Shown: in pieces, positions 48,094 through 53,444 of the stretch
Layout of the letters: the number at the start of each line of letters is the position of its first letter
Numbering within the stretch: position 1 is the stretch's first letter
Assembly: GCA_902762795.1 (NCBI GenBank)
Contig: CACWPM010000018.1
Coordinates: forward strand, 62,001 to 126,000
From: Fibrobacter succinogenes
GTDB taxonomy: Bacteria > Fibrobacterota > Fibrobacteria > Fibrobacterales > Fibrobacteraceae
DNA: 64,000 bases
Direction of reading: 5' to 3'
Made by a program: the position numbers and the translations under genes
The notes under the pieces: generated by a model
Databases searched by the model: none
Told to the model about the DNA's origin: nothing
Seen by the model: the letters and a program-made list of their open reading frames with translations, nothing else

Positions 48094-48222
48094 TATAGGT
48101 TTCAGGTTACAGGTTTTAGGTATTAGGTTAATTTCATGCACTTCGTGCATCTATAAAACGGGCGACGGAGTCGCGATAATAAATCCTATTACCTAACTCC
48201 TAAAACCTAATTCCTACTCTTT
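48094..48222. repeat. Paired-arm TTAGG repeat with two hairpins (copy at hrpA start)
   Basis: Left arm TAGGTTTCAGGTTACAGG then TTTTAGGTATTAGG (48096-48129). Core: ATGCAC TTC GTGCAT (48136-48150), CTATAAAACGG, GCGAC GGA GTCGC (48162-48174). Right arm CCTATTACCTAACTCC then TAAAACCTAATTCCTA (48185-48216). The right arm provides the TAG stop of the reverse-strand zinc-ribbon gene. Confidence 0.8.
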
Positions 48223-48354
48223 AATATGCCCGCATTTGTCGCAGGTGAGCTTGTAGCTGTTATCGGGGTCAACCACCATCACGCCGTCGCATTCCGGAAC
48301 TTCGCAGGGGAGTTCCCCCGGCATCACATCTCTGTAAGTCTTTTTTTCTTCCAT
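48214..48354 (-). CDS. Small zinc-ribbon protein
   Basis: 46 residues from ATG 48354 (MEEKKTYRDV); an upstream in-frame start at 48399 is less likely. Cysteines in PCEVPEC and CDKCGH make a short zinc ribbon. The stop codon is inside the repeat arm. No family is named. It is divergent from the thioesterase gene. Confidence 0.65.
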   Translation of the reverse strand: MEEKKTYRDVMPGELPCEVPECDGVMVVDPDNSYKLTCDKCGHIKE

Positions 48355-48415
48355 AATGCACTGAATATAGAAATTCGTGCCCCCGCACCGCCAATACATT
48401 ACTTATTTTTTCAGC

Positions 48416-48901
48416 ATGGAAAACGCAAAAACAGTCAAGCAATCTCAAGTCGAAACCCGCGACATCGTTCACCCTTCCGACGTCAACGCCTACAATTTCG
48501 TATTCGGCGGACACATGATGTCGCTCCTCGACAAAGCCGCCTGCATCGCCGCCTATACGCACGCAAGGCGCAGAGTCACAACGATTTCCATCGACAATGT
48601 ACGCTTTTTCAAGCCGGCAACCATCGGCACGATTCTCACGATTAAAGCCTCCGTGAACCGCGTGTTCAACACTTCATTAGAAGTCGGTCTCAAAGTCGTG
48701 GGAGTCCACCCGCAAATTTCGTGGCAGCCCGAAGTCATTTGCCACGCGTACATGACATTTGTCGCTCTGGACGAAAGCGGCAAGCCTACCCCCATTCCCT
48801 CCATCATCCCCGAAACCGAAGACGAAATCCGCCGTTTCGAAGAAGCCGAAATCCGTCGCGAAGCACGAAAAAAACTCGCAGAACAGCTTTCAAACAAGTA
48901 G
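48416..48901 (+). CDS. Acyl-CoA thioesterase (hotdog fold, YciA/YkhA-like)
   Basis: 161 residues from ATG 48416 (MENAKTV); an upstream in-frame ATG at 48377 is less likely. The domain has VHPSDVNAYNFVFGGHMMS with the catalytic Asp/Asn region, LDKAACIAAYTHA and TISIDNVRFFKPA. These enzymes hydrolyse medium to long acyl-CoA. The last 30 residues are charged and helical. No clear ribosome binding site precedes it. Confidence 0.9.
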   Translation: MENAKTVKQSQVETRDIVHPSDVNAYNFVFGGHMMSLLDKAACIAAYTHARRRVTTISIDNVRFFKPATIGTILTIKASVNRVFNTSLEVGLKVVGVHPQISWQPEVICHAYMTFVALDESGKPTPIPSIIPETEDEIRRFEEAEIRREARKKLAEQLSNK

Positions 48902-48934
48902 AACTCGAATTTTCAACCCGATTTTAGCCATCTA

Positions 48935-48972
48935 TACCTATAAAAATGGCGATAGCCCACATTTTATAGGTA
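48935..48972. repeat. Long inverted repeat, copy 1
   Basis: TACCTATAAAAAT ... ATTTTATAGGTA form a stem of about 11-12 bp around a 12-14-base loop. The arms are the same as in copies 2 and 3. Confidence 0.85.
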
Positions 48973-49102
48973 CGATTCGAAGAAAAAAAGCTCTCCTGCT
49001 TTAGTTTAAAACAAAACAAGACGCATACAAAACAAAAAAAATTAAAATACATGCTTTTTTCACTAAACTTTAGCATTTTTCAGTACAAATAAACTAACAA
49101 AG

Positions 49103-49139
49103 TACCTATAAAAAAGACTTTATCGCAATTTTATAGGTA
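49103..49139. repeat. Long inverted repeat, copy 2
   Basis: TACCTATAAAA (49103-49113) pairs with TTTTATAGGTA (49129-49139); the loop is AAAGACTTTATCGCAA. The 3' half AATTTTATAGGTA is shared exactly with copy 3. Confidence 0.88.
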
Positions 49140-49166
49140 GCCAACCCCAAGAGCGAGGGAAACAAG

Positions 49167-49203
49167 ACCTATAAAAAAATACATTATCTCAATTTTATAG
49201 GTA
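49167..49203. repeat. Long inverted repeat, copy 3
   Basis: ACCTATAAAA pairs with TTTTATAGGT; the loop AAATACATTATCTCAA resembles that of copy 2 beyond the arms, which supports duplication. Confidence 0.88.
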
Positions 49204-49307
49204 CCCCGCACGAAAAAAGCACCACAGCGAGCGGCCTCAAAGCTCATTTCGAATAAATTTCATCCTTCCACTCTAGTCCTGAAACGAGTCCAACGACATT
49301 TTTTCCT

Positions 49308-49342
49308 CTCTCGTCTTTCGTTTGGATTCTCTCGTCTAATTA
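49308..49342. repeat. GTCTTTCGTC-type dispersed repeat
   Basis: CTCTCGTCTTTCGTTTGG, then ATTCTCTCGTCTAATT. It shares the words found in the hrpA insertions and at the epimerase end (28853-28885). Confidence 0.6.
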
Positions 49343-49420
49343 AAACACTGGATACAGTCGAAAACATTTTATTAAAAACGACCCTTTGACGCGCCGTCTT
49401 TCGTTTCTAGATTTTTACAC

Positions 49421-50755
49421 ATGAAAAAGATCGACGTCAAGGACCGTTCGCTCATTAGCCTTTCGTGGCCGCTAATTCTCACGTTCGCCGTGAGCATGAT
49501 TCAGCCCATGATGGATAGCTGGTTCTTGTCGCGCACTTCCGAAACCGCAGCAGCCGGCGTCGGAGCCATGCTCCCGATTCTCGGGGCTCTTTTCACCGCA
49601 CTTCACGCATTTGCGCAGTCCGGCGCAAGCATCGTCTCGCAGTACATCGGCGCGAAGCAAAAAAGCCACGCAAGCAGCACGCAGACAATGGTCCTCTTCG
49701 GGAGCATCCTTCTTGGCGTCGCGCTCACGCTCATCATCTACCCGCTTTCCGGGAACATTCCACAATGGATGGGACTCACCGATGAGCCCGCCAAATATGC
49801 CACGCAATTTTTAAGCGTCGTTTCGTTCGGGTTCGCCTTCCGCGCTCTGCAAACCATCCTCACCGCCCTCATCGCGACACACGGCCTTACCATTTGGAAC
49901 TTTGTCGGTAACACGCTCACAATCGCCACAAACGCAGCCTTGAATGTCGTATTCCTCGAAGGATATTTTGGGCTCCCCAAGATGGGCGTTTACGGCGTGG
50001 CCCTCGCCACCGCACTCTCGTGGCTCATTTCTTCGGGCATTCTTTGGCTTGTGCTCAAGTTCAAAGTGCACCACCACAGCAAAACCCGCGACTGGAAGCG
50101 CACCCGAGTTCTTTTGCCCGACTGGATCCGCATCGGGCTTCCCGCCGCCGCAGAACCCATCAGCTTCCAGCTTTTCCAGGTATTCATCACGGCGATGGTC
50201 GTCTACATCGGCACAACCGCAATGACCGCCCGTGTGTTCGCCGGTAACTTTGCCGCTTTGTCTATAATTCTCGGAGTCGGCCTTGGCAGCGGAAACCAGA
50301 TTCTCGTGGCACACCTCGTCGGTGCGCATGACTACATAAAAGCAAACCACCGCGTTCACCAAACACTCGCCGTAGGCATCACCAGTGGTTTTTTGCTATC
50401 CGTCGCAGTAGCCCTCCTCGGCGAGCACCTGCTCAGGCTTTACACCGACAATCCAGAAGTTCTCCGCCTCGGCAAAATCTGCCTCTGGTGCGACGTTGCC
50501 GTGCAACCCTTCAAAGCCGTAAACTTTATCGTCACCACATCGCTCCGTGCCGCAGGCGATTCCAAATTCCCGGCACTCGTCGGTAGCGGCATGATGTGGA
50601 CACTCGGCCTTGCAACCTCGCTTATCCTCGCATTTGTCGTTGGGCTTGGGCTCCCCGGCCTTTGGCTTGGCATGGCCGCCGACGAATTCTACCGCTCGTT
50701 TGCCAACATTTGGCGCTGGCATAGCGGCCGCTGGAAAAGCAAGGCGGTGGTATAA
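49421..50755 (+). CDS. MATE-family multidrug/metabolite efflux transporter
   Basis: 444 residues with about 12 membrane helices. LISLSWPLILTFAVSMIQPMMDSWFLS, the QSGASIVSQYIGAK motif and VGLGSGNQILVAHLVGA in the second half are typical of MATE proteins. It exports cationic compounds by Na+ or H+ antiport. It is preceded by the three inverted repeats and followed by a strong bidirectional terminator. Confidence 0.95.
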   Translation: MKKIDVKDRSLISLSWPLILTFAVSMIQPMMDSWFLSRTSETAAAGVGAMLPILGALFTALHAFAQSGASIVSQYIGAKQKSHASSTQTMVLFGSILLGVALTLIIYPLSGNIPQWMGLTDEPAKYATQFLSVVSFGFAFRALQTILTALIATHGLTIWNFVGNTLTIATNAALNVVFLEGYFGLPKMGVYGVALATALSWLISSGILWLVLKFKVHHHSKTRDWKRTRVLLPDWIRIGLPAAAEPISFQLFQVFITAMVVYIGTTAMTARVFAGNFAALSIILGVGLGSGNQILVAHLVGAHDYIKANHRVHQTLAVGITSGFLLSVAVALLGEHLLRLYTDNPEVLRLGKICLWCDVAVQPFKAVNFIVTTSLRAAGDSKFPALVGSGMMWTLGLATSLILAFVVGLGLPGLWLGMAADEFYRSFANIWRWHSGRWKSKAVV

Positions 50756-50856: not shown

Positions 50857-51858
50857 TTACGATTTGCCAAGTGCAGCCTTGATGGCGATAACATCAACTT
50901 CAGAAAGCTCAGTGAAATCAGTAATTTCTTCAACAGGCTTGTTTTTCAACAGCATTTTCTTTGCTATTTCGCGAGCTTTTTGATTGGCGCCCTTTGCGAG
51001 ACCTTTTGCGAGACCCTTTGCGAGACCTTCTTTGAGACCTTCTTTGTGACCTTGACGCAAGCCGCTATCAATAGCCGCTTTATGGATTGCGTATTCATCC
51101 CACTTGGCTTTCTGTGCTTCGTCAATCATCTTCTGTTCCTCTTTCGATAATTTAGCCAATTTCGCTGTCGAAAACAAGAGTTCGAACACCGTATTCGCAT
51201 ACTGCTTGGGCATCAGCGTCATGTTTTTCATGTTCTTGAGTGCGTAAAGTGCCTTATCGAGCGTCGTTTCCAGCTCGTCCAAAGGCTTGTTGAACTTCGG
51301 AAGTTCTACAAATGCAAAATTGAGCGTTTCACAGATACTAGCTCCGTTCATTTCTCGAAGCTTTGCTCGTCGAATGTAGCGGTCATCGGCAAAGACATTA
51401 AATTCCATAAATACAACCGTAACGACAGGGCTCAATTCGTAATTGTATTTTTGTCCGCGTTCGCCCTGCGCTACAATCGTTTGCGAGGCATAATAAATCG
51501 CACGATTGACGATGTTTTCCTGAAAAAGAATCTGCACCTCGATGATAAACCGTCGCCACTCAGAATCGATGCAATGTAAGTCAAATACAGAAGTCCGATT
51601 TTCATTCGAGCCATCGCTGTATTCTTTGTTGCGGGACTGCACATCGACAATCGGCGACGCGATTTCTCCTTCAAGTACAGCGTTCAAAAGCGCAATCAGA
51701 CAGACTTTGTTCTGCGTGTCAGGATTGAAGGCTTTCTTGAATGTTCTGTCAAGAAGAAGATCCGCGAAAACTCCTGCCCCTTTGTATTCTTCGAAAGTCT
51801 TTGCCTCGCCAATCATTTCGCCGTGGCCATTTTTTATTTCGATGCTATTATTTTTCAT
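50857..51858 (-). CDS. Rpn-family PD-(D/E)XK nuclease (recombination-promoting nuclease / putative transposase)
   Basis: 333 residues. The N-terminal region (LDRTFKKAFN ... LIALLNAVLEG) and the nuclease core (VFDLHCIDSEWRRFIIEVQ, with D, E and Q) fit the TIGR01784/PDDEXK_2 Rpn family. Near the C-terminus a GLAKGLAKGLAKG segment is encoded by a 12-bp tandem repeat (about 50994-51035). Rpn proteins promote RecA-independent recombination and are often multi-copy. It is probably monocistronic. Confidence 0.9.
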   Translation of the reverse strand: MKNNSIEIKNGHGEMIGEAKTFEEYKGAGVFADLLLDRTFKKAFNPDTQNKVCLIALLNAVLEGEIASPIVDVQSRNKEYSDGSNENRTSVFDLHCIDSEWRRFIIEVQILFQENIVNRAIYYASQTIVAQGERGQKYNYELSPVVTVVFMEFNVFADDRYIRRAKLREMNGASICETLNFAFVELPKFNKPLDELETTLDKALYALKNMKNMTLMPKQYANTVFELLFSTAKLAKLSKEEQKMIDEAQKAKWDEYAIHKAAIDSGLRQGHKEGLKEGLAKGLAKGLAKGANQKAREIAKKMLLKNKPVEEITDFTELSEVDVIAIKAALGKS

Positions 51859-52075: not shown

Positions 52076-53026
52076 TCAGTTTTTGAGGCAACGGACTGAG
52101 TATCCACTCGTTTTATGGCTACCACTATTACTAATGTGCATAGCGTCACCAACGGCAAATAAACCCACTGAGTAAGCTTTGTCTTGTTCGTCTTCTGTCG
52201 CACTCCAAAAGCCACTCATAGTGGTTGCAAACGTGACAATATTAGGCTGCTTATAGCCGGCCGGCAGAGCAGAAAATCCAACAGCATCAATGCCGTTCGC
52301 TCCAGTCTCAGGCGTCCAGCCCGTCTGAGACTTAAGAATCTTTCCAGCAACATCCTCACCTCCGACCAGGTTAAGCAAAACAGACCATTCGTCATTATTA
52401 GGTAAATGCCAGCCATCCGGGCAAACTTTGATTGCTGTTTTCCATACATACAAACGTCCTATTCTAACGCTATCTACAGCCTTATTGATAGAAGTCCAAA
52501 TTGGGCCAGAGTAAGAATCAGGTTCACTGCCATCGGTATAATCCAGATTCTGGGCCATCCACCACTGGTCACCGATCTTTACCGTTTTGTATTTTTTACC
52601 ATCGCGGTCGTCCACCAACTCGCCGTATTCGCAGTTGTCTTCCGTTTCTGTTTTGCACAGAGTCGCCAACGTGACCGAACTCGATGAAGACTTCGCCGAA
52701 CTGCTGCTCGACTTGGCAGCCTCAGAGCCGCCATCTCCCTGCTTTTTACTAGATGAGGATTTCGGCTGGTTATAGGATTCAAACCAATGGTCGCCATCGC
52801 ATTCGTAATTTTTTTGTTTGTCCTTCACATACACGATTTCACCGATTAAAGACATATTGCACTTGTATTCTTCAAGTTCGTCCATATCGGCAACTTCATC
52901 AGGCAACTCGTTGGGAGAAGAACCCTTATCATCACCACAAGCGACAAGAGCCATAGACAGGAAAATCGCAGGCAGAGATTGCTTCGCAATGCTCGCAATG
53001 ACGTTATTCATTCCAAATTTTTTCAC
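52076..53026 (-). CDS. Lipoprotein with Fibrobacter major paralogous domain
   Basis: 316 residues from GTG 53026, chosen because AAGGAG lies upstream; a longer frame to 53143 would be all hydrophobic and lacks a site, and ATG 53011 is another option. Lipobox ALVAC. A Ser-rich linker (SSSSAKSSSSSV) precedes the paralogous domain (TVKIGDQWWMAQNLDYT, PDGWHLPNNDEWSVLLN, GFWSATEDEQDKAYSV). The domain is abundant in Fibrobacter surface proteins; the function is unknown. The signal peptide (NNVIASIAKQSLPAIF) is encoded by a repeat of the TCATTGCGAGCATTGCGAAG type. Confidence 0.92.
   Translation of the reverse strand: MKKFGMNNVIASIAKQSLPAIFLSMALVACGDDKGSSPNELPDEVADMDELEEYKCNMSLIGEIVYVKDKQKNYECDGDHWFESYNQPKSSSSKKQGDGGSEAAKSSSSSAKSSSSSVTLATLCKTETEDNCEYGELVDDRDGKKYKTVKIGDQWWMAQNLDYTDGSEPDSYSGPIWTSINKAVDSVRIGRLYVWKTAIKVCPDGWHLPNNDEWSVLLNLVGGEDVAGKILKSQTGWTPETGANGIDAVGFSALPAGYKQPNIVTFATTMSGFWSATEDEQDKAYSVGLFAVGDAMHISNSGSHKTSGYSVRCLKN
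52975..53010. repeat. GATTGC...GCAATGACG repeat serving as signal peptide code
   Basis: GATTGCTTCGCAATGCTC, then GCAATGACGTTATTC. The same family as at 39668-39706. Here it is in frame and encodes part of the signal peptide of the paralogous-domain lipoprotein. Confidence 0.65.
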
Positions 53027-53444
53027 TTGCACTCCTTTTTGTATAAATAAAATAAAAAAATATATCAAATAAATTTTTGTAATAGAAAAAAATATAGACA
53101 GTAAAACGATATAGGAGATTCCGGCATAAAGCTGGAATGACATCGCAAGGATAAAACTTTACTAGATCTTTCGCCCTGCTCAGGATGACAAGTCCAAGAA
53201 TACAAAGCGTCCGCGTCTCTTTCTACCGCCTACTGTCTACTTATACTCTCGCTTCGCTCAAGTATCAAATGCTAGCCTCGGTCATGCCGACACTCGACTT
53301 ACGCATTTGTCATACTGTCAACGGCATTCCGCTTGCTTATTCCTAATCACTAACCACCCACCTAAAGGTGGCCATGCCCACATAAGTACTGAAGTACTAA
53401 GTGGTCAAAGGTAACCACCAACCACTATTTACTACATTTGGCGC
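53027..53444. repeat. Gene-free repeat-rich region before dnaG
   Basis: REP-like GGAGATTCCGGCATAAAG, then CTGGAATGACA (53112-53141), a CTTTCGCCCTGCTCAGG, then ATGACA repeat (about 53167-53190), a CTACCGCCTACTGTCTAC repeat (53224-53243), and CACTTAGTACTTCAGTACTTA-like words on the reverse strand near 53380-53402, as direct inverted repeat TAAGTACTGAAGTACTAAG. No gene is seen. The dnaG promoter should be at the right end. Confidence 0.6.

Follow-up and report, generated by a model that had tools for sequence, protein, structure and literature searches.

In cooperative operator and centromere arrays, the repeats lie in helical phase and are bound by regulators or by plasmid partition proteins. 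Dispersed short palindromes with an enzyme of their own are described in the REP/RAYT (TnpA-REP) and REPIN systems (PMC2817692, PMC3116915, PMC8266576). There, REP palindromes adjoin their transposase gene and coevolve with it, and their abundance follows the presence of that gene (PMC2817692); dispersed REP units constitute miniature mobile DNA (PMC3116915).

An array of three palindromes upstream of a MATE transporter gene was examined in a 64,000-nucleotide stretch of Fibrobacter succinogenes DNA, referred to here as the window. The reading considered likely is that it is a solo cluster of putative binding sites for a palindrome-specific nuclease family, here called family Y, together with the mechanism proposed below. 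The partner of the array is very probably an undescribed, putative DNA-cutting protein whose gene lies at another place in this genome.

Geometry and helical phasing of the arrays

The features at the locus are the following, in window coordinates:

48377-48901, plus strand: 4HBT thioesterase, upstream neighbour, context only (ORF listed from GTG; the true start may be further downstream)
48902-49339, no strand: approximate extent of the sequence missing in array-free relatives, from the thioesterase stop codon to a conserved AAACACTGGATACAG upstream of MATE
48935-49203, no strand: whole window array, type 1, solo, without an adjoining nuclease gene
48935-48972, no strand: palindrome 1 of the type-1 array, arms TACCTATAAAA / TTTTATAGGTA, loop of 16 bases
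49103-49139, no strand: palindrome 2 of the type-1 array, arms TACCTATAAAA / TTTTATAGGTA, loop of 15 bases
49167-49202, no strand: palindrome 3 of the type-1 array, arms ACCTATAAAA / TTTTATAGGT, loop of 16 bases
49421-50755, plus strand: MATE transporter, downstream neighbour, context only

All three inverted repeats reported in the preliminary description are present in the sequence, and its coordinates for copies 1 (48935-48972) and 2 (49103-49139) were accurate, as were the TTATCKCAA common to copies 2 and 3 and the intergenic gap of 519 bases (48902-49420). The end it gave for copy 3, 49203, lay one base too far: the palindrome is perfect over 49167-49202, and the outermost pair, 49166/49203, is G/A. 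Loops of 15-16 bases separate the arms, and the arm of the array is TACCTATAAA. Six matches to this arm at ≤1 mismatch occur in the window, against 0.64 ± 0.79 (maximum 3) expected from dinucleotide shuffles. The centres of palindromes 1 and 2 are 167.5-168 bp apart, equal to 16 helical turns, and those of palindromes 2 and 3 are 63-64 bp (63.5 bp) apart, equal to 6 turns. No hidden fourth palindrome was found in the 168-bp gap, and a window-wide palindrome search returned no second such array.

Elsewhere in the window, an ORF at 50857-51858 (minus strand) resembles by eye the Rpn/PDDEXK_2 transposase-like nucleases, with no tie to the array seen. A lipoprotein-like ORF at 52076-53143 (minus strand) carries, by eye, a Fib_succ_major domain, typical of a Fibrobacter paralogous family whose relatives adjoin several arrays. 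A sub-threshold Rfam match to DUF805b RNA was recorded at 48211-48236 (minus strand; 22.9 bits, gathering threshold 35.6).

The preliminary description had proposed a whole-genome search for the repeat, and this proved positive, with ~55 palindromes. The census was made by pattern searches: with ACCTATAAA-N17/18-TTTATAGGT at ≤3 mismatches over the whole genome G000 (3.9 Mb, 89 contigs), 40 palindromes were found whose loop is 15 bases long and 16 whose loop is 16 bases long, compared with 1 and 2, respectively, in a reversed control. Nearly all of the ~55 copies sit in 15 intergenic arrays of 3-4 palindromes each. The arrays were strictly intergenic and the palindromes A/T-rich at the centre. 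Across 72 array loci (G000 and relatives), the palindromes were near-fixed in length, and centre spacings were restricted to 53, 61-64, 74, 84-85, 94-97, 126, 135-137, 147-148, 159, 168, and 210 bp. A period scan of a non-redundant set that included other palindrome types peaked at 10.50 bp (vector length R = 0.89, n = 157), and the whole-turn rule also held in arrays without any other common sequence. Because the centre spacings are whole helical turns, they point to a protein on one face of double-stranded DNA. The whole-turn spacing, the ~15 arrays per genome, and the partner gene described below are all additions to the preliminary description. Its exclusion of CRISPR was sound: variable whole-turn spacings, varying loops, 3-4 units, and unrelated neighbours do not form the combination of constant repeats, unique spacers of constant length, and adjoining cas genes that marks CRISPR.

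The same repeats could be taken for an array of RNA hairpins or for the decaying relics of a miniature insertion element without a living partner, given that each unit is foldable as RNA (z -3.4 to -4.4) and that homologous copies are dispersed in the genome. Whole-turn spacing, however, is a property of double-stranded DNA, and since proteins on double-stranded DNA require it while RNA hairpins need no 10.5-bp phasing, the regulatory RNA array considered in the preliminary description is unlikely. With no Rfam match within the array, conserved arms, and an existing partner gene, the hairpin-or-relic explanation as a whole appears scarcely credible.

Other palindromes constitute dispersed families of their own: type 2, TACATACTAAA, in 11/61 genomes, and a third type, AGGACTAAA, in 11/62 genomes, with 28 palindromes in G033. 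An unbiased scan of the DNA collected for the analysis added further palindrome types, GNTACCAAA and GCGGTGAAA, as solo arrays that also keep to whole-turn spacing, at L044:10853 and 17185, L136:7352, L142:12009, and L111:830; the first of these types matches the Y at G000:C13:10237. At G033:C4:115070-115571 and G083:C9:286973-287272, arrays are enlarged by tandem duplication of a 201-bp unit with two palindromes.

Family Y, a putative nuclease linked to the arrays

When all flanking genes were compared, only family Y (~275 aa) turned up repeatedly next to arrays in Fibrobacterota as well as in Clostridia. For the linkage test, family-Y genes were gathered by protein search alone, and their flanks were inspected afterwards. 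A cluster of at least two palindromes was present at 29/30 of the first Y genes inspected, and in the full set 70/78 Y loci had a phased array ≤700 bp upstream. At least three palindromes lay upstream in 62/78 loci and downstream in 9/78; several of the 8 loci without an upstream array have a downstream one. By the same scoring, hits came from 0/250 random windows, 0/130 Clostridia windows, and 5/500 upstream windows of other genes; of those five, three are genuine solo arrays with another palindrome type and two are low complexity. Within Clostridia, an array was found at 17/23 full-length Y genes from a profile search, the weakest of the 17 being uncertain.

Y was present in 15/16 array-bearing genomes (Fibrobacterota and Clostridia), several of which are related and do not represent 16 independent events, versus 0/15 control genomes holding a single chance palindrome each; all of the genomes were reached through palindrome hits. 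The exceptions among the controls were two weak partial Y matches in ~900-aa frames, and the lone array genome without Y, G093, has a weak array. In the genome of the window, the cognate gene was located as follows:

G000:C37:6851-7747: Y gene cognate to the window array; a type-1 array of its own lies 140 bp upstream of it

From the sequence evidence, it is highly likely that the arrays are the cognate binding arrays of family Y. The firm part of this reading is that the sites are type-specific and helically phased and that their partner is family Y. G006 and G019 each carry arrays for which no Y of the matching type turned up in the genome. In G006, where no type-1 Y was found, the type-1 arrays look eroded, with lone palindromes and more mismatches; the type-2 arrays of G019 are no worse than those of G006.

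No Pfam, NCBIfam, or PHROG family and no PDB sequence match of note covers family Y. Three motifs, RSKSE, PDF, and WEH, are near-invariant in 73 proteins, giving the acidic pattern with a PD element seen in PD-(D/E)XK nucleases, with the third motif ending in H instead of the usual K. In profile searches, the last ~110 residues matched PADLOC HEAT_CxxC_PDDEXK (7e-6) and the C-terminal part of PDC-S68 (1e-25). The same domain also forms part of proteins with RecD-like helicase or AAA ATPase annotations. The predicted model (mean pLDDT 80) consists of a helix, a three-strand sheet, and a long helix, followed by elements arranged as in PD-(D/E)XK nucleases. Residues ~150-272, aligned by structure, matched over 88-114 residues VRR_NUC (Z 7.0), TnsA (6.8), Hjc (6.7), and Vsr (6.4), with Bax1 also among the matches; the Z values are modest (6.2-7.0 overall), the profile matches agree with them, and the predicted model contains the alpha-beta core of the PD-(D/E)XK family. 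Foldseek alone gave no match below E 0.001. The C-terminal domain of Y is thus supported as a predicted PD-(D/E)XK nuclease. The N-terminal domain (three strands and a long helix) had no confident fold match; a likeness to AP2 or integrase-arm domains was a mere idea, for which no confident match was returned. No integrase or transposase domain was recognisable in Y, and among its neighbours no TnsB, TnsC, or helicase partner was noticed.

A Y subfamily represented by G000:C9:95153-96058 and its homologues in several species has an insertion of ~42 aa within the nuclease domain. A virus origin was considered and rejected, as IMG/VR held only scattered single palindromes and no family-Y relative. 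One full-length Y relative comes from an unverified scaffold of 4.2 kb labelled "Bacteriophage sp.", where inspection by eye recognised no upstream array, and on plasmids the C-terminal domain of Y is present only as helicase or AAA fusions.

Approximately 30 arm types were distinguished among the Y paralogues, which come from Fibrobacter and gut Clostridia. For 52 non-redundant proteins, arm distance, compared at the best offset and therefore a rough measure, correlated with distance in the LR...AQxDY segment (rho 0.39). Controlling for the nuclease left a partial correlation of 0.34 between arm type and the N-domain; controlling for the N-domain left 0.006 between arm type and the nuclease. 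Two pairs resemble swaps: L300/L303 have nuclease domains 98% identical, segments 50% identical, and arms TACCTATAAA versus TACATACTAA, and L318/L233 have nuclease domains 98% identical, segments 86% identical, and arms GGGCATATAA versus TACCTATAAA. The nuclease domains of the type-1 Y at G000:C37 and the type-2 Y at G006:C83 are 96-98% identical. Palindrome type therefore tracks the N-terminal domain, not the nuclease. The LR...AQxDY segment is encoded near the 5' end of the Y gene, adjoining the array, and with array and N-domain side by side, one crossover within the Y gene could exchange both.

Distribution, conservation, and spread of the arrays

The neighbours of the arrays are unrelated to each other, including polA, UvrD helicase, cellulases, MATE, thioesterase, and others, and the flanking genes are convergent in 22, divergent in 18, and tandem in 31 cases (n = 71), with no promoter bias. 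Because the neighbours are unrelated and all orientations occur, there is no promoter regulon; the sites do not lie at the promoters of regulated genes, as those of an operator system would. At the window site itself, G019 has an orthologous array with the same spacing, G062 and G006 have an array of the type-2 palindrome, and G014, G004, G001, and G027 have the gene pair and no array.

A classical operator array, on which a transcription regulator would control MATE and a regulon, can draw on phased palindromes being typical of cooperative regulators, on the autoregulation suggested by an array immediately in front of each Y gene, and on TIGR02147 genes that start at arrays at three loci. With these neighbours and orientations, and with four close relatives holding the same gene pair without an array, it is nevertheless highly unlikely. 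The operator array offered in the preliminary description is upheld in kind, as a protein-binding array, by the phasing and by the tie between arm type and a protein domain; a specific MATE operator is not.

TIGR02147 (Fsuc_second, DUF4423) genes start directly at arrays of both palindrome types at three independent loci:

L048:8521-9417: TIGR02147 gene at an array
L131:6612-7445: TIGR02147 gene at an array
L143:4938-5759: TIGR02147 gene at an array

As the candidate binder, TIGR02147 was rejected, being beside arrays at three loci and not recurrent in Clostridia. A scan of named genomes found the same phased palindromes in Clostridia, spaced 73-75 and 84 bp apart and numbering up to nine. In the clostridial genome S27M_St_58, palindromes are set exactly 84 bp apart in arrays of 5-9, at ≥10 loci including L280:6015-6722, L232:7414-7953, and L219:27-398, and just one Y gene was found there.

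Six orthologous array pairs were compared between G000 and G019. Changes were found at 12/395 arm positions (3%), 77/380 loop positions (20%), and 238/1,002 spacer positions (24%), values that favour the arms somewhat because the pairs were picked for recognisable palindromes on both sides. In the window array, 0/53 arm positions had changed versus 40/189 others. With regard to movement, the array at the polA site of G000 is an insertion of ~430 bp, absent at that site in the 29 other genomes examined, G019 included, and nine arrays in G000, at sites unrelated to one another, share ~300 bp of homologous sequence. No clear target duplication was seen at the polA insertion, and neither terminal inverted repeats nor a target-site duplication was recognised in the nine homologous arrays, whose ends are diffuse. 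These data document the spread of the arrays as an outcome, not as a mechanism. The preliminary description had also suggested relics of mobile units; "mobile" is partly borne out by the lineage-specific insertion and the dispersed homologous copies, and "relics" is not borne out, given conserved arms amid diverged spacers. Behind polA in G006 (L378), a different insertion occupies the same intergenic site and carries a GACCCGT...ACGGGTC hairpin, which is also found behind polA in other relatives.

Conserved arms and array positions shared over several species would also fit use by the host. Y would then be a domesticated DNA-organising or regulatory protein, with the arrays serving as chromosome-structure or transcription-insulating sites and the nuclease fold being secondary. 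The retention of arms amid diverging spacers is in keeping with this, as are the strictly intergenic location and the fact that the same intergenic regions carry arrays in several species, even with differing palindrome types. It fits poorly with nuclease motifs near-invariant in 73 proteins, with arrays that are patchy among close relatives, one of them missing in every one of the 29 relatives compared at that position, and with ~30 palindrome types that can differ at a single site. Overall, host-serving sites are considered an unlikely alternative.

For the preferred reading, in which the arrays are sites for the family-Y nuclease, we infer binding, cutting, autoregulation, and a route of spread as follows. 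The three-strand N-terminal domain of Y would read one arm, placing a dimer on each palindrome, and whole-turn spacing would set 3-5 Y dimers per array on one DNA face as a single complex. The array before the Y gene probably autoregulates Y too. The PD-(D/E)XK domain would cleave the DNA within the bound array or close to it, the A/T-rich centre of the palindrome being one possible cut site, and the subsequent repair would carry array copies into new intergenic sites. The complete unit would be the array plus the Y gene, with solo arrays such as that of the window as non-autonomous copies, and one crossover inside the Y gene would swap recognition domain and array, creating a new specificity. 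Whether the arrays spread as mobile units through Y is judged to be evenly balanced. The fuller proposal is held more tentatively, with slightly more doubt than confidence: an undescribed selfish or host-shaping system in which a nuclease with an exchangeable palindrome-reading domain and cognate phased arrays would spread by cutting and repair and change specificity by one crossover.

Comparison with known systems

Nothing was found in the open-access literature on Fibrobacter palindrome arrays or on the pairing of Y with arrays, and a description may exist elsewhere. In two phyla, an orphan intergenic repeat is tied to a protein family without a full Pfam, NCBIfam, or PHROG model, and the ~30 protein/palindrome pairs offer a natural recognition code, half-site against a segment of ~50 residues, with swap pairs ready-made.

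The nuclease domains matched by the C-terminal domain of Y, by profile or predicted structure, are those of TnsA, VRR_NUC, Hjc, Vsr, and the candidate defence proteins PDC-S68 and HEAT_CxxC_PDDEXK. Unlike TnsA and these PD-(D/E)XK nucleases, Y is a stand-alone protein of ~275 aa that has an N-terminal domain of its own and is paired with a cognate palindrome array. The arrays resemble MITEs in being short, non-coding, and dispersed, in their lineage-specific insertion, and in having a presumed helper protein encoded elsewhere. They differ in that the constant feature is the internal phased array, and arrays of the same type may share no other sequence. With cooperative operator and centromere arrays they have in common repeats in helical register, predicted here to be bound on one DNA face, whereas the ~15 arrays per chromosome, the lack of a partition or regulator gene, and the nuclease-like partner set them apart.

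The likeness to REP/RAYT lies in short palindromes beside the gene of their own (here putative) DNA-cutting enzyme, dispersed extragenic copies, palindrome-protein coevolution (here the partial correlations of 0.34 versus 0.006), several types per genus, and patchiness among strains. However, RAYT is a Y1/HUH tyrosine transposase related to IS200/IS605, whereas family Y is PD-(D/E)XK-like and had no Y1/HUH family match in Pfam, NCBIfam, or PHROG. In addition, rayt is flanked by two inverted REPs, whereas the Y array lies on one side, upstream; the sites here number 3-5 at whole-turn spacing, with long arms around a 15-20-base loop; and copy numbers are in the tens, compared with hundreds for REP. 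By analogy, the Y system thus appears similar to REP/RAYT in logic and, given the enzyme class and flanking pattern, is not a member of it. It would represent a second instance of the REP/RAYT pattern, built on an unrelated enzyme, and therefore the question of why genomes carry dispersed palindromes together with a cognate nuclease would become independently testable.
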